DNA from: a virus
DNA: 21,963 nucleotides
Reading direction: 5' to 3' (one strand)
Virus record (IMG/VR): IMGVR_UViG_3300009413_000100
Span: 1 to 21,963 of that record
Position numbers and translations under genes: made by a program. Below the pieces are notes generated by a model. The model saw only the letters and a program-made list of their open reading frames with translations. It had not been told where the DNA came from and did not search any database. The stretch's first letter is position 1. Every line of letters begins with the position of its first letter. Below, piece after piece: positions 9,275 to 16,687 of the stretch.

Positions 9275-12200
9275 ATGACTCAAATCAGTCTTCCATCTGG
9301 AACCATAATTGATTTTAAGGATTTAGGTTCTAAGGAAATAGAAAGTGCTCTTGTTCGTATGCAGGAGGAAGATCCTTCTTTGTTTGTTGCACCAGAACAA
9401 GAGGAAAGGCTTTCTCTTCCCGTTCCTGAAACTGAGAGCATGGTAGAGAAAGCCTATCAACAATATTTGATGAGAGGAACTCCTTCTGAGGTCAGCATTG
9501 GTGAATACGGAGATATTGAATACGGACCAGAAGGAGCTGCAGCTACTAATGAAGGGGAAGTAGACGATCATTTTTTTCAATTTAAGTATGGACGAGCAGA
9601 TAATGATGAGGAAAGAGAAAAACGACTTACTGCAGAATTTGGAGAAAACAGTTTTATTCGTAAAGGATACGGAGATTATTTACTTAATCTAGATAATATT
9701 GGCCAAGCAAAAAAGGAAGAATATAACCTACCTCTTGAAGGAACAATACACGTCAATGAACCGGGTCTTTCTTGGTACGATGTTTCTGGATTTTTAGGAG
9801 GAGAAGCTGCTCCCCTTGGAGCTGCTCTAGGAGCAGGTCTTGTATTTAGTGGTGTAGGGATTGTACCGGGAATGTTGATAATGGGTGCTGCCGGTGCAAC
9901 AGGTAAAGGCTTTGATGAACTTATAGAAGCCAAATTTGAAAAAATGAACACCCAGACAGATGATGAGGTTTATAAAGATATTGCATTGACTGGTGGTCTA
10001 TATGCTGTTGGTGAAGGACTTGGAAGAGGACTTTTTGCAGCAGGTAGATATCTTTTAAAAGGTCCTGGTCCAAAGCCAGATCCTCAAAGAATAGCTCAAT
10101 TAATAGAAAAGGGTTTGCCAGAAGGCGAAGCCACTGTTCTTGCTAGAGAAGAAGCTAAGAAAAGTTTAAGACAGGCTGTAGAAGAAGGGGCCAGACCTAC
10201 ATTAAAAGAAGCTTCTGGAAAAGCACTCGCTGGTAGATTGCAGGCTATTTACGAAGGTATTTTTGAAAATAGAGTCGCCGCTGAATCAAATAGGAAATTC
10301 ATCCAAAAGAAAATGGATGCTTTTAAAGAAGGTCGTCTTAGTGAAGCAGATTTAGTGAAAGTATTAGATGAACAAGCTGTTGCGATCCAAGCTCAAGTTA
10401 AATCCGCCATGGAAAATGCAGATATAACTCAAGCTGAAAAATTAGCTAAAAAGCATTTAGATGAAGTTATTGATAATGAATTCAAAATCATTACAGATTT
10501 GTATGATCCTAAACTCGGTTTAAGTGCAAATGCATCACAGTCACTGAGTCAAGCCGCTCGTTTATTTGAACAAGATTCTCAGTATCTTTATAAAAAGTCA
10601 GAGGATCTTCTTTCTGGTGTAGTAGACAATGAAGGCTATAATGCAGCCACTTTTAGCACTAATTTAATTAGGGGTGCTTTAAATAATATCGCTTCTGATA
10701 AAGCCACCACTGCTGTTGTTGGCGATGCTTTTCGTACAGGGTTATTTCAATATATAAGAAGTAACGAAAGACTTTCTCTGACTGAGCTTACCTCTTTAAA
10801 AAGTGCCATACGTTTAGTAGGCAAAGATCCAGGTCTTATGCCTGGAGTAACTGATAGACATATTGGTTCACTTGTTGATTCAATTAGCAATACTATAACT
10901 CAAAGATTTGAAGGACTGGCTTATCTTAGAGCTGCAAAAGGACGTGCCATAGGGCGTCTTTCCGAACCATCAGAACAACTTTTTAATGAGGGAATAAGAG
11001 CCTTTTTGAAGGCTCAAAATTTTCATTCAAAAGGAATGCAGCGTTTTAAATCAGCTAATATAGATATGCTGCATAAAAATATAGATGCTGGCGTGATAGT
11101 TGGTAGTAAACCTGTTATGGAGACGTTGGTTCAACCTGGAAATGCACAACCATTACGTTCCTTTCTTAAAGCGGCTACTCCTAGTGGAATAAAAGCAAAA
11201 GAACGTGCTTCCAGTTTAATGCAAGCAGGTCCTGAAGTATTTAGAAATGCTTCAAGAGCCGCTTTTAATGGTAATTTAAAAGAGGCTAACACTATTTTGA
11301 GAGAAGCCAATGTATCTGAGGATTTAATCCCAAAACTTCCTGAATTTGTTGAACGGTTACTTGCTCATGATCCTGAAACAGGCGCCTTGGTTCGTCCTTC
11401 TGTTAAAGGGAGCTATAACCGATTAAATGTTCCCGAAAGAAAAACTTTAACAGAAGCCCAAGAAAGACATATTACAAGAAATCGGGATCCTGATGTTCCA
11501 ACAGGCCGACCATTGTCTATGCAAGAAGCTCGAGGCATGGGATACACAAAACCGCCAGAGACAGTGACTGTTAGAGTTGATCCTGTAGACAATTATTACT
11601 CACATATATCCAAAGAATTTGGTCAAACTATGCGTGGTTATGCAGATTTGGCTGTGGCAAGAGCGTCACCTCAAGCTGTCAGAGATTCTGTCAGGGATTC
11701 TTTGGCAAAAGAATGGCTTGATCAAAGCGCAACTAAAATTCAAGGCGTTGTTGATGGAGCATCTTTTGCAAAGAAATTTGAAGCTTTAGGCACCGATCTT
11801 CAAAATGTTTTATTTGGTAAGAAAAACGCAGCAGCTTTCAGAGCACTTACCAAAGACTGGTACATGATGGGGTCCAGTAACAAAGAACTTTCTGATCAGG
11901 TTGTTAGAACTATTCAAGAATCTATTGAATTTGGAAGACCAGTTCGCCCAGGTTTATCTGAAGAAGCTGCAGAACTAGCTGCTACGATTAGAACAAGAGC
12001 CGAAGCGGATATCCCAGGAGGCACTGTTTTAGGTGAGGACAAGACCCTTGGCGGTTTAATTTCTGGGCTTAAAAAAGTTATGGATTTAAATAAGGCCCAA
12101 AGTGAAGATGCCTTATTTAAAGCCATTAAAAAAGGAGAAATTGATGATCCAAATAAATTGGTTGATGCTGTCTTAAAAGATCCAAAAAATTATCGAAGAT

Positions 12201-13006
12201 TAGTTGGTGAGTTTGGAGATGAGACGCTTGATTTACCCCTGAGTTTAAAGGATGCCGTTGCGGCAAGGATAGTTAATGCGGCTTTTCCAGAAGGAGTCAT
12301 TGATGGTGAATTAGTAGCAAGTGGCGCATGGGCAAAACCTATGCGAAAAGCCATTAGAGAACTTAATAAAAACGGATCAGTTTCTGAAATATTAGGACAA
12401 GACACAGTTAATGGGCTACTTACTCTTACTAAAGTAGGTGAAGCTATATCCTCAAAACCATTGGCGGGTAAAGGTGGTCTGGCGGCTGCTACTTTTGCTG
12501 CCGCAGCTTTATTTAGATTAATAACATCACCCCTTTCTTTTTTGACTGAAGCAAGTGCTATTTTTGCCATGGGTAGAGTTTTACGTCAAAAATGGTTTTT
12601 AAAATCAATGCTCGCTCCTAGATTTGAAACTCCGAGTGGAATTGTAAGTGTTGGAGGAAAGCGTCTATATGAAAAAGCTTTGGAGAAAGGTGTTGACGTA
12701 GATCCAGTTCTAAACAGTCCAGTTCTAATGGAACTCGTAGATAGAGTTAACCAAGAAGCTAGATTAGTTGTCGCAGCTATGGCAGGTCGTGGTTCAGAAA
12801 CGGGTGTAGAAATGGTAAAAGAAGAAGTAGCTCCAATTATGGAAGAAATAGCCCCAGCCCTAGAAGAAGCCAAACAACAAGTTCAAGAAGTCGTTCCTCA
12901 ATTAACTCCCGGCCAACCGCTTGCTGCAGTTGCCCCCGGCCAAATGACCGCTGCTGATGTCGAAAGGCAACGAGTAATGAATCAACTTGCAGGTTTACCA
13001 GCCTGA
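9275..13006 (+). CDS. Very large putative internal virion / ejection protein
   Basis: A 1243-residue, mostly helical protein, the largest in the window. Two Gly/Ala-rich hydrophobic regions lie at about residues 171-211 and 237-262, and a third at about 1063-1104 (ATFAAAALFRLITSPLSFL); these could insert in membranes during DNA entry. The remainder is charged helices. The C-terminus (about 1185-1243) is an acidic helix followed by a Pro/Gln segment. No lytic transglycosylase or polymerase motif was recognised. Size, composition and position at the end of the ejection-type genes recall T7 gp16-like or P22 gp16-like roles, without visible sequence similarity. The ATG lacks a clear ribosome binding site. 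The whole gene is AT-rich relative to its flanks. Confidence 0.6.
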   Translation: MTQISLPSGTIIDFKDLGSKEIESALVRMQEEDPSLFVAPEQEERLSLPVPETESMVEKAYQQYLMRGTPSEVSIGEYGDIEYGPEGAAATNEGEVDDHFFQFKYGRADNDEEREKRLTAEFGENSFIRKGYGDYLLNLDNIGQAKKEEYNLPLEGTIHVNEPGLSWYDVSGFLGGEAAPLGAALGAGLVFSGVGIVPGMLIMGAAGATGKGFDELIEAKFEKMNTQTDDEVYKDIALTGGLYAVGEGLGRGLFAAGRYLLKGPGPKPDPQRIAQLIEKGLPEGEATVLAREEAKKSLRQAVEEGARPTLKEASGKALAGRLQAIYEGIFENRVAAESNRKFIQKKMDAFKEGRLSEADLVKVLDEQAVAIQAQVKSAMENADITQAEKLAKKHLDEVIDNEFKIITDLYDPKLGLSANASQSLSQAARLFEQDSQYLYKKSEDLLSGVVDNEGYNAATFSTNLIRGALNNIASDKATTAVVGDAFRTGLFQYIRSNERLSLTELTSLKSAIRLVGKDPGLMPGVTDRHIGSLVDSISNTITQRFEGLAYLRAAKGRAIGRLSEPSEQLFNEGIRAFLKAQNFHSKGMQRFKSANIDMLHKNIDAGVIVGSKPVMETLVQPGNAQPLRSFLKAATPSGIKAKERASSLMQAGPEVFRNASRAAFNGNLKEANTILREANVSEDLIPKLPEFVERLLAHDPETGALVRPSVKGSYNRLNVPERKTLTEAQERHITRNRDPDVPTGRPLSMQEARGMGYTKPPETVTVRVDPVDNYYSHISKEFGQTMRGYADLAVARASPQAVRDSVRDSLAKEWLDQSATKIQGVVDGASFAKKFEALGTDLQNVLFGKKNAAAFRALTKDWYMMGSSNKELSDQVVRTIQESIEFGRPVRPGLSEEAAELAATIRTRAEADIPGGTVLGEDKTLGGLISGLKKVMDLNKAQSEDALFKAIKKGEIDDPNKLVDAVLKDPKNYRRLVGEFGDETLDLPLSLKDAVAARIVNAAFPEGVIDGELVASGAWAKPMRKAIRELNKNGSVSEILGQDTVNGLLTLTKVGEAISSKPLAGKGGLAAATFAAAALFRLITSPLSFLTEASAIFAMGRVLRQKWFLKSMLAPRFETPSGIVSVGGKRLYEKALEKGVDVDPVLNSPVLMELVDRVNQEARLVVAAMAGRGSETGVEMVKEEVAPIMEEIAPALEEAKQQVQEVVPQLTPGQPLAAVAPGQMTAADVERQRVMNQLAGLPA

Positions 13007-13021
13007 CATTGACCTTTTGTA

Positions 13022-13672
13022 ATGCCCAATGAAATCCAGGCCCAAATTCTAAAGCCATTTGGTCCACGCATTTTAAAGGCTCTCGTTCCTAAAGCCATTC
13101 TTGATACGCTCAATGACCAGTGCGATGAGATCGTAGCTGGCTCCGACCATGACAAACTTGATATTTCCAATGACCTGGTAGGTCATGTGCAGGAAGAATG
13201 GTCATGTGACATTGAACAAGTACCTGATTTTGGGAATATGCTTTTTCTACTGACCAAGGGCCTTTATGAGCATTTTCTAGTGGAGACCGAGGCAGATCAG
13301 TCCGAGAAGCCCGTAAGCCTGGTTGTCCATAAGAGCTGGTTCATCCGGTCCTTTGAAAACGACTACAACCCGACGCATATGCATACCAGTGGCAGTTATT
13401 CCTGTGTACTGTTTCTCAAGGTGCCTGACACCGTTTCAGACACCAACAGCAAAAACACGAAGAAAAAAGCCACCGAAGGCTATATTGATTTCGTCTACGG
13501 GACTTCTCTGGTGTGCTGTGCCGGCAACAAATGCATCCAACCTACCATTGGAAGCCTGTATATTTTTCCTTCATACCTGTTCCACACGGCTTATCCGTTT
13601 TACGGCTCTGGGGAAAGACGCTCTTTTTCAGCCAACATGTCTCTGGGAGTCGAACCAAATGAAACTGTCTGA
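13022..13672 (+). CDS. 2OG-Fe(II) oxygenase-like protein
   Basis: A 216-residue protein resembling the 2-oxoglutarate/Fe(II) oxygenases often carried by marine phages. The putative metal site is H119-x-H121 (in NPTHMHTSGSYS), with the distal histidine H188 in FPSYLFHTAYPF and R199/R200 (GERRSFSANMSL) suited to bind 2-oxoglutarate. The next segment, CVLFLKVP, matches the usual SGVLYLKVP-like strand. The second metal position is His where the classic motif has Asp; I recall HxH in the phage-associated subfamily, so this need not mean loss of activity. Substrate is unknown (protein, nucleic acid or small molecule). It overlaps the peptidase gene by 14 bases, so both are probably expressed late. 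Confidence 0.75.
   Translation: MPNEIQAQILKPFGPRILKALVPKAILDTLNDQCDEIVAGSDHDKLDISNDLVGHVQEEWSCDIEQVPDFGNMLFLLTKGLYEHFLVETEADQSEKPVSLVVHKSWFIRSFENDYNPTHMHTSGSYSCVLFLKVPDTVSDTNSKNTKKKATEGYIDFVYGTSLVCCAGNKCIQPTIGSLYIFPSYLFHTAYPFYGSGERRSFSANMSLGVEPNETV
13645..13649 (+). promoter_or_regulatory. Ribosome binding site that sets the peptidase start
   Basis: GGGAG lies nine bases before the ATG at 13659, inside the 3' end of the oxygenase gene. It supports this start over in-frame ATGs further upstream, the earliest at 13323, which would add residues lacking any family resemblance. Confidence 0.6.
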
Positions 13673-14105
13673 CCACTTCACCCTGAAAGAACTAACCAAG
13701 TCCCATACCGCAGAGCGCAAGGGGATCGACAATACCTGTAACGATGCCCAGTTAGCCTGCCTAACATCCTTGTGCATCAAAATTCTGGAGCCTGTTCGAG
13801 ACCACTATGGTATTCCTTTCACACCGTCGAGCGGCTTTCGATGTCTGGCTCTGAATCGTGAGATAGGCTCGTCTGACAAGTCTCAGCACACGCTGGGTCA
13901 GGCGGCAGATTTTGAAGTGCCAGGTATCTCAAACATGGATCTGGCGCGGTGGATCATGGCCAACCTGGACTACGACCAGCTTATCCTGGAGTTTTATGAC
14001 GGCGTAGATCCCCACTCAGGCTGGGTACATTGCAGTTACGTGGAGAACCGAAATCGCAAAAAGGCGCTTCGTTTTGATGGAAAGATTTTTCAGCCTTTAT
14101 CGTAA
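13659..14105 (+). CDS. M15A-type peptidoglycan peptidase, probable endolysin
   Basis: A 148-residue protein with the peptidase M15A pattern. It opens with LSDHFTLKELTKS, followed by SSGFRC (residues 57-62), the zinc motif SQHTLGQAADFEV (ligands H77 and D84) and WVHCSY (ligand H124). Such enzymes cleave cross-linking peptide bonds in peptidoglycan, and phages use them for host lysis. It has no signal peptide and no membrane segment, so it would need a holin or another route across the inner membrane; no holin is visible beside it. The start at 13659 is chosen for the family's N-terminus and the ribosome binding site. Its last 9 bases overlap the convergent gene on the other strand. Confidence 0.88.
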   Translation: MKLSDHFTLKELTKSHTAERKGIDNTCNDAQLACLTSLCIKILEPVRDHYGIPFTPSSGFRCLALNREIGSSDKSQHTLGQAADFEVPGISNMDLARWIMANLDYDQLILEFYDGVDPHSGWVHCSYVENRNRKKALRFDGKIFQPLS

Positions 14106-14119
14106 TTTTTTCAGCCTTT
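14086..14119. repeat. 13-base direct duplication at the convergent gene ends
   Basis: TTTTTCAGCCTTT occurs at 14086-14098 and 14107-14119, 21 bases apart. The first copy encodes the last residues of the peptidase (FQPL) and the second lies beyond its stop; on the other strand they flank the end of the sigma-region-4-like gene. No hairpin terminator is evident here. Confidence 0.8.
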
Positions 14120-14762
14120 CTAACCATGGTGGTTGGTTATCCATTACCCAAACATCGCCAATTATTTTAACAACCACACGATGGTATATTGTATTAAGTG
14201 CTTGTCGCTCTAGCTGTATAACTCTATTGCCAGAAATTTTCCATGCAGCACCTATCTCACGATAAGTTTGTTTCAGCAACCAACGCCTGTTAATAATGTC
14301 TTTTTTTCGTTCATTTAAACCATAACCGCTATACTTGCTTGGAGGAATATTATATTTGATCGATCCGTTTTCCGATGTATCCAAAACGTGATTGAGGCCA
14401 GATTCAATACTTCTGCCATAATTTATATTACCGACAGAAGAAAACAGTCGTGTAACATACTTTTCTGCTTTTTTACGTTGTTCAGGCGCTTTACATCCCT
14501 CTTGTATACTCGTTAAAACTCTTTCTTTAAACAGCTTGATTAGTTCATCAAGTCTTTCTTGCCTGATTTTTTCTATTTCAGCCCGTTTTCTTGCCTGTTT
14601 TTCCTGCCTGATTTTTTTATTAGCTGCTTTTGTTTTTGCAGAACGGTATGCCTTTTGGTTTTTGCGCTTCAAGTGCTCTATGGCTTTTGCTCTGTGTTCC
14701 TCCCACTCATTTATCAGCGCCAGTCTTGCTTCTGTATCACTGATTGTATGCTCATCAATCAT
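14097..14762 (-). CDS. Basic protein with sigma-70 region 4-like domain
   Basis: A 221-residue protein. Residues 25-80 are a strongly basic, probably coiled-coil segment rich in Lys, Arg, Glu and Ala. Residues 149-195 match the pattern of sigma-70 region 4: LNERKKDIINRRWLL, then TYREIGAAWKISGNRVIQLE and QALNTIYHR, with the helix-turn-helix at about 167-186. No region 2 is visible, so it is not a complete sigma factor; a phage transcription activator, as in RinA/ArpU-type sigma-like regulators, is one option and a DNA-binding packaging or recombination protein another. It is the last gene of the replication operon, its ATG overlaps the polymerase stop (ATGA), and it converges on the late block. 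It is more AT-rich than the polymerase gene. Confidence 0.65.
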   Translation of the reverse strand: MIDEHTISDTEARLALINEWEEHRAKAIEHLKRKNQKAYRSAKTKAANKKIRQEKQARKRAEIEKIRQERLDELIKLFKERVLTSIQEGCKAPEQRKKAEKYVTRLFSSVGNINYGRSIESGLNHVLDTSENGSIKYNIPPSKYSGYGLNERKKDIINRRWLLKQTYREIGAAWKISGNRVIQLERQALNTIYHRVVVKIIGDVWVMDNQPPWLERLKKLR

Positions 14763-16687
14763 TTCGCATCTCCCCAGTTCTTGCCAATCCCCACATCGAC
14801 CCGAGAAGGAATGCGGCGCTCTGGTACACAGTTCTCCATGGCCTCCTTGATTTGTGGCACCTGCTCACGGCTCTCAATCGAAAAGCAAAGCTCGTCATGC
14901 ACCGTGACCATGGGCAAATGACCAAGGTCCATGCATTTCCTCATGGCCGTCTTCGTCTCGTCGCTTGAACTGGCCTGTACCAATCGGTTCAATGATTTGT
15001 ATGTGAATGCAACGCGGTATCTTCGAGGGTCGTGGTCCCTCCAGTTGGTTTCGCGTTCTTCCAGAGGTATATCCATGATGGCACGCCAGTTTTGCTCAAG
15101 CGTATCCACATGAACAGGATTCTTGCTGGAGTCATAAACACGCTGTTCCCGCATGGGAAAGCGGCATTTACGGCCTCCTAGCGTGCGTAACTCCTTTCTT
15201 TCGGAGGCTACCCGCGTGACGGCACCCGCCAGAGCGCGGATAAAAGGCACTTTTTCGTCATATTCGTCCCGGATCTCCCGCGCTTCCTCAAAAGAGACCC
15301 CCAGAACATTGCTGAGCTTGCCCAAACCCATTCCATACATAATGCCCAGGTTGATGGTCTTGGCGAGAGAGCGTTCCACGTCTGCAAGATCGGCAACCAT
15401 CTGGTGGAAATCCAAATCGTCGTTCTGGTATTGCTCGACGATCTCAATCACTTTTTCGTTGTCTCGAGTAGTGGGCGCCAGTGAGGCATAGTGCATAAGC
15501 CACCGTGGCTCTTGGGCGCTGTAATCGAAACTAGCCCATTCGCAGCCTTCTTCCGGAAGGAATAAACCCCTAATCATTTCCTTGATTTCAGGGTGACGAG
15601 ACGGCATTTGTTGCAGATTCGGATGGCTCGACGAAAATCTCCCGGTCACTGTCCCGGCACCGTCCGAACGAAGCTGGTTGAACTCGCAATGGATCCGTCC
15701 TTTATGCTGGTGGTCAAGAATAGTGTTCACAAAGGTCGTGTTGGCCTTGTTGTATTCCCGTATCTCCAGAATCTTTTTGGCGACAGGATGCTTGTGCGCC
15801 TTGAGAAATGCCTTGGTAAAGCTGGGCGCCTCAGTCTTTCCAGTGCGCTCATAGCTTAGCTTCAAACTGTCAAAAGCAGTTGCCAGACTGGTCGCGTTCC
15901 ACGGCTCAATGTCCACCCCCGTTTCATCCTTAACCTCTTTCAGAAGCTTCTTTTCCTTACGCTCCAGTGTCTTTTTAACCTTTTCGGCGCCCTCCAGGTC
16001 TACGCGCACACCTCGTTTTCGCATCTCAAATACCAGCGGCAGCAGCGAAAGCTCCAGTTCTAAAATCTTTTCGCAGTCGTCCTTGATAAGTTTTTTGTGA
16101 AGCGTGTTCCATAACGAAAGGGTAAGCTTGGCATCCGTCTCGGCGTACAGGGCTACCCGAGCCGCCGGCAACTTCCACATCTCCGCCTTGGCATCCACAC
16201 CATGCTGGCTGGCAGCACGACGCAGATCCGCCTCCTGCTTGCGTTCTCCCAGGTAAGCTGCACCCAGCGCGTTCAGTGAGTAGCTCATGCGGTTCTCGTC
16301 CAGCAACGGCGCCGCAATCATGGTATCCAAAATGGGACCCCTGATCTCAATGCCTTCCGTCAGCAGCCATCCGAGATCGTACTGGGCATTGTGGTACACG
16401 GTAGTAATGCCGTCCTTCAACTGGTCCTTCAGCCACCGTACCACGGTACTTTTGCCCATGTTTCCGCGTCCTTCATGGGCAATTGGCAGGTATGCACTCC
16501 AGTCGGCTACCGCTACGGCGATCCCGATCAACTGCCCACTGCCCGTGGCCCATCCCGGCCCCCGTGAGGTCAGGTAGGGATCTCGAGTTTCCACGTCAAT
16601 GGCCATGATTTTCTCTGCCGACAAATCAGGAAGTTCTTCTGGCGGAGTCCATGTGGACTCGTCAAACAGGTCGTCTTGTGAAGTCAT
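14759..16687 (-). CDS. polA: Family A DNA polymerase with 3'-5' exonuclease domain
   Basis: A 642-residue replicative polymerase. The exonuclease domain has motif I (D31, E33 in AIDVETRDP), motif II (N100 to D104 in HNAQYD) and motif III (Y181 to D185 in YAETD). Polymerase motifs follow: TVTGRFSSSHPNLQQMPSR (347-364), motif A FDYSAQEPR with D388 and E393, motif B R439 and K443 to Y451 in RSLAKTINLGIMYG, and motif C VHDE with D598. All metal ligands are present. The residue at the E. coli Pol I Phe762 position is Leu447. No 5' nuclease domain is present, as is usual for phage enzymes. The ATG overlaps the helicase stop by four bases (ATGA), and its own stop overlaps the next start in the same way. 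Confidence 0.95.
   Translation of the reverse strand: MTSQDDLFDESTWTPPEELPDLSAEKIMAIDVETRDPYLTSRGPGWATGSGQLIGIAVAVADWSAYLPIAHEGRGNMGKSTVVRWLKDQLKDGITTVYHNAQYDLGWLLTEGIEIRGPILDTMIAAPLLDENRMSYSLNALGAAYLGERKQEADLRRAASQHGVDAKAEMWKLPAARVALYAETDAKLTLSLWNTLHKKLIKDDCEKILELELSLLPLVFEMRKRGVRVDLEGAEKVKKTLERKEKKLLKEVKDETGVDIEPWNATSLATAFDSLKLSYERTGKTEAPSFTKAFLKAHKHPVAKKILEIREYNKANTTFVNTILDHQHKGRIHCEFNQLRSDGAGTVTGRFSSSHPNLQQMPSRHPEIKEMIRGLFLPEEGCEWASFDYSAQEPRWLMHYASLAPTTRDNEKVIEIVEQYQNDDLDFHQMVADLADVERSLAKTINLGIMYGMGLGKLSNVLGVSFEEAREIRDEYDEKVPFIRALAGAVTRVASERKELRTLGGRKCRFPMREQRVYDSSKNPVHVDTLEQNWRAIMDIPLEERETNWRDHDPRRYRVAFTYKSLNRLVQASSSDETKTAMRKCMDLGHLPMVTVHDELCFSIESREQVPQIKEAMENCVPERRIPSRVDVGIGKNWGDAK

Follow-up and report, generated by a model that had tools for sequence, protein, structure and literature searches.

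Does a viral protein that has region 4 of a sigma-70 type factor and no region 2 act on RNA polymerase, and is it a switch for late genes or something more dispensable? In bacterial sigma factors, region 4 holds on to both RNA polymerase and the -35 DNA of the promoter. The question is raised by a gene in the IMG/VR virus record IMGVR_UViG_3300009413_000100, of which positions 1 to 21,963 were analysed (the window; 21,963 nucleotides). An earlier note on this DNA had proposed that the gene product couples early transcription to the activation of late genes. The comparisons described here favor, with slightly better than even confidence, a different role: a stand-alone sigma-region-4-like protein that acts as an accessory modulator of the host RNA polymerase with a changed DNA specificity.

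The gene and its genomic context

The open reading frame had been placed correctly by the earlier note; it begins with an ATG start codon and encodes 221 amino acids on the minus strand. The features of the locus are the following:

14097..14762, minus strand: gene for the stand-alone sigma-region-4-like protein, 221 aa (open reading frame; Sigma70_r4 match; two homologues with the frame kept; dN/dS below 1 against L002)
14187..14318, minus strand: sigma region 4 domain, residues 149-192, RpoH-like (Pfam, NCBIfam, structure-sequence and pairwise matches)
14496..14753, minus strand: long helix at the N-terminus (residues 4-89; predicted by AlphaFold), with a basic stretch at residues 20-75 (charge count)
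14759..16687, minus strand: family A DNA polymerase, directly upstream in the replication operon (phrog_17, E 1.1e-117)
14759..14762, minus strand: ATGA overlap of the polymerase stop and the start of the sigma region 4 gene (GTGA in L001)
13659..14105, plus strand: convergent endolysin (phrog_894), whose 3' end shares 9 bp with the 3' end of the sigma region 4 gene

The minus-strand replication operon of the window consists of small genes of unknown function and the genes for a primase, a helicase, the family A polymerase and the sigma region 4 protein, the last of which directly follows the polymerase gene and closes the operon. The plus-strand block, which ends in a 2OG oxygenase and then the endolysin, contains structural genes, as judged by position and by comparison with contig G002. 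This contig of 55,769 bases carries one of the homologues (L002) and is probably a complete genome because it has a 91-bp direct terminal repeat. In profile scans covering 20 ORFs of G002, genes for terminase, portal and head proteins were located on the strand that does not carry the sigma region 4 gene, and the gene order around the latter is like that of the window, except for a 1.4 kb insert between the polymerase and the sigma region 4 gene. The gene order bears out the earlier description: the sigma region 4 gene comes last in the replication operon and points towards the structural and lysis genes. The ATGA overlap is consistent with translational coupling of polymerase and sigma region 4 protein; a scan for sigma-70 promoters and terminators around the gene gave matches that were not above chance.

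An RpoH-like region 4 without region 2

A region 4 pattern had been noticed earlier at residues 149-195, and the Pfam profile Sigma70_r4 indeed matches residues 149-192 (E 4.8e-8; 32.8 bits, gathering cut-off 24.1), which assigns the protein to PF04545 (sigma-70 region 4) by profile score. In a DNA search of the three records, all three homologues scored above the cut-off (best protein E 1.2e-9), and amino-acid conservation among them is highest in region 4. Among the curated NCBI profiles, sigma-32/RpoH ranks first, with E 3.5e-7 for the window protein and 3.2e-8 for the best of the three; the full-length equivalog profile of sigma-32/RpoH is reached with 24.3 bits, in contrast to a curated cut-off of 323.1, region 4 being all that is shared. 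Among solved structures, the RpoH chain 8hkc_E was the sole sigma factor matched (E 0.012 with the single sequence, 1.8e-4 with a three-sequence profile). Aligned pairwise, the domain and Escherichia coli RpoH share 44% identity across 45 residues (E 4e-7), whereas identity to RpoD is 25% (E 0.004). By sequence, region 4 of the 221-aa protein is nearest to that of sigma-32/RpoH. This likeness was absent from the earlier note, as were the rarity and the AT-richness of the gene described below.

An unrelated helix-turn-helix (HTH) fold had been named as the result that would speak against a sigma-like function, and by sequence there was none: no other HTH family matched the three homologues at E <= 1 in Pfam, and in Pfam, NCBIfam and PHROGs the protein matched neither nucleases nor transposases nor any further HTH family. 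PADLOC returned nothing. The reported absence of region 2 was corroborated as well. Neither region 2 nor region 3 was detected in the 221-aa protein with Pfam and NCBIfam profiles, and Sigma70_r2, which matched the positive controls, had no match in the window, the two other carrier contigs or ten related records. Region 2, which in a complete factor of the sigma-70 family binds the core enzyme and recognizes the -10 element, was found neither in the protein nor in the phage.

In Bacillus, SigO/RsoA is a split sigma factor with region 4 on its own polypeptide. The protein described here shares the separate region 4, and it could be one half of such a factor that needs a region 2 partner supplied by the host or the phage. 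However, this is a very improbable explanation, since Sigma70_r2 is unmatched in the carriers, including the probably complete G002, and the present phage differs from SigO/RsoA in that no region 2 partner was found; a partner from the host or a strongly diverged phage protein could escape such a search.

The remainder of the protein is dominated by its N-terminus, the basic character of which had been pointed out before: residues 20-75 contain 19 K/R versus 9 D/E. AlphaFold models residues 4-89 as one helix, with a pLDDT of 80-84 at residues 11-60 and lower values beyond. Based on a three-sequence alignment, the region 4 part of the full protein is predicted with a pLDDT of about 45, and a fragment of 86 residues is predicted as a single 60-residue helix with no turn, plus a short helix (pTM 0.37). 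The single-helix model of the fragment may well be a product of the shallow three-sequence alignment.

Distribution among related phages

Homologues of the window protein occur in just two further IMG/VR contigs (L001 and L002; 87-88% and 66-69% identity). No others were found in IMG/VR, also in a polymerase-anchored search, or in bacterial and archaeal genomes, phage records and plasmids. From 80 relatives fetched by means of the polymerase, which are not all independent, 54 extend at least 887 bases 3' of the polymerase gene; the sigma region 4 gene is present in two of these, which are the two homologues, and missing in 52, and in the listed relatives without it, convergent genes or other genes directly follow the polymerase. 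Sigma70_r4 was above the cut-off in none of 33 related records, which include five complete phage genomes. Two annotated ORFs in related phages, L006:6231-6488 ("sigma-G factor") and L008:11052-11315 ("DNA-directed RNA polymerase"), were considered as relatives and rejected because their translations are unlike the sigma region 4 protein; both public annotations are possibly wrong.

One of the five complete phages is HTVC027P, whose genes fall into early, middle and late transcription classes, with the host RNA polymerase said to serve throughout (PMC12753301). The late programme of HTVC027P is independent of the sigma region 4 gene, and presumably the same holds for the carriers. A search for a phage RNA polymerase gave no match; for that family, no control genome matched either.

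These data bear on the proposal of the earlier note that the protein is a dedicated late-gene activator of this phage, comparable to the RinA/ArpU group. In favor of it, the gene closes the replication operon and points towards the late genes, and this positional part of the proposal stands. The role itself is weakened: 52 relatives with the same type of polymerase and enough downstream sequence lack the gene, as do the five complete related phages, and a late class exists in HTVC027P without it. Kinship to RinA/ArpU was not supported, as neither NCBIfam nor PHROGs gave a match to such a profile at E <= 1, and by profile the protein does not belong to this group. It resembles RinA/ArpU, following the earlier note, in the presence of a region-4-like domain in a small phage protein, but it is encoded by a rare accessory gene. 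A dedicated activator is therefore a most unlikely explanation, although the gene may have taken over late control in this particular lineage. Overall, it looks like a rare accessory and not an essential late-gene switch, and because of this rarity the preferred reading treats the protein as an optional modulator.

Composition and evolution of the gene

The sigma region 4 gene has a G+C content of 37.5% versus 53.6% for the polymerase gene, and the difference is larger at third positions (30% versus 62%). When the window is compared with L001, the sigma region 4 gene has a synonymous divergence of 0.085 and a dN/dS of 0.71; the values are 0.51 and 0.07 for the polymerase gene, and 0.56 and 0.12 for the helicase gene. 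When the window and L001 are each compared with L002, dN/dS of the sigma region 4 gene is less than 1 (Fisher p 0.006 and 0.01), which suggests selection on the protein; for the window and L001, the deviation is not significant. Judged by these sequence ratios, the gene is under weaker constraint than its neighbors. A history of its own might explain why its synonymous divergence is so low; the nucleotide identity profile, which was checked for recombination, has no sharp boundary at the gene. The 1.4 kb insert in L002 (L002:4589-6000) contains a short zinc-ribbon-like frame and a frame of 426 aa, and the junction between polymerase and sigma region 4 gene seems to be open to insertions.

The AT-rich composition, the patchy and restricted distribution, the additional insert at the same junction, the weak constraint and the basic helix would all suit a protein that binds DNA via its HTH and the basic helix and makes no contact with RNA polymerase, for instance a regulator or a passenger of a mobile cassette. 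This alternative is rather unlikely. The absence of matches to nucleases, transposases and other HTH families argues against it, and so does the pattern of conserved residues described in the following section.

Contact residues and proposed role

The sigma-32 side of the interface with the flap tip is formed by A221, L225, W244, L245, L278 and E283, and alanine at E265, R266 or R268 leads to a substantial loss of transcription (PMC10216364). W244, L245 and L278 align with W161, L162 and I192, all of which are invariant in the three homologues, and A221, L225 and E283 fall into stretches without a possible alignment. R266 corresponds to the likewise invariant R180; however, E265 is replaced by N179 (N, N and T in the three homologues) and R268 by I182 (I, T and K). 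At the alignable positions, the putative flap-contact face is kept and the predicted DNA-reading face is altered. For a protein that binds only DNA, the opposite would be expected, namely varying residues at the W244, L245 and L278 positions and constant ones at the base-contact positions.

The proposed mechanism rests mainly on this combination of kept flap-contact and changed DNA-contact positions, as seen by comparison of residues. The sigma region 4 protein would be made from the distal end of the replication-operon transcript and would therefore appear together with the DNA polymerase. Region 4 would bind the flap, and the basic N-terminal helix would add DNA grip or dimerise. The -35 element of sigma-32 would probably not be read as such because two of the three key residues of the recognition helix are replaced; the polymerase might be steered to other sites, or -35-dependent host transcription might be weakened. 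The sequence comparisons establish the domain, the lack of a region 2, the gene order, the rarity of the gene and the identity of the kept contact residues; flap binding, timing and direction of the effect are what we infer here. A more specific version, which we regard as tentative and rather improbable, is that a mobile gene has combined a detached RpoH-like region 4 with a DNA-gripping helix, that the product displaces the host sigma region 4 on the flap, and that it retargets the polymerase without a region 2 of its own.

The W-L pair at the flap contact and the R266 equivalent are shared with region 4 of sigma-32; in contrast to sigma-32, the protein lacks regions 2 and 3, has replacements of E265 and R268 and a shorter loop before the HTH, and carries an unrelated basic N-terminus. 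The late coactivator gp33 of T4 replaces sigma 4 at the flap-tip helix and contacts upstream DNA, and it is structurally unrelated to sigma 4 (PMC7892883). By analogy, the model would assign the same mode of action to the protein studied here, of which residue conservation is the aspect examined; unlike gp33, it is homologous to sigma 4, and a region 2 counterpart was not found in the phage. No phage protein of this make-up was found described in the open-access literature, and the protein is a variation on the known use of the sigma 4 module by phages. If the preferred reading is correct, a phage lineage employs a region 4 of the sigma-32 kind, detached from the rest of the factor, as an optional means of acting on transcription, and W161, L162, N179, R180 and I182 are the residues singled out by the kept flap and changed DNA positions.

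Further observations

Positions 9275-13006 of the window, a region of about 40% G+C, encode a protein of 1243 aa that has no PHROGs match at E <= 1. An ORF of 157 aa in the interval between primase and helicase of L001 (L001:2086-2559) is missing from the window; it is acetyltransferase-like by eye only. In L016:7961-9232, two neighboring ORFs cover consecutive parts of the helicase profile phrog_62, which suggests a split or interrupted helicase gene.
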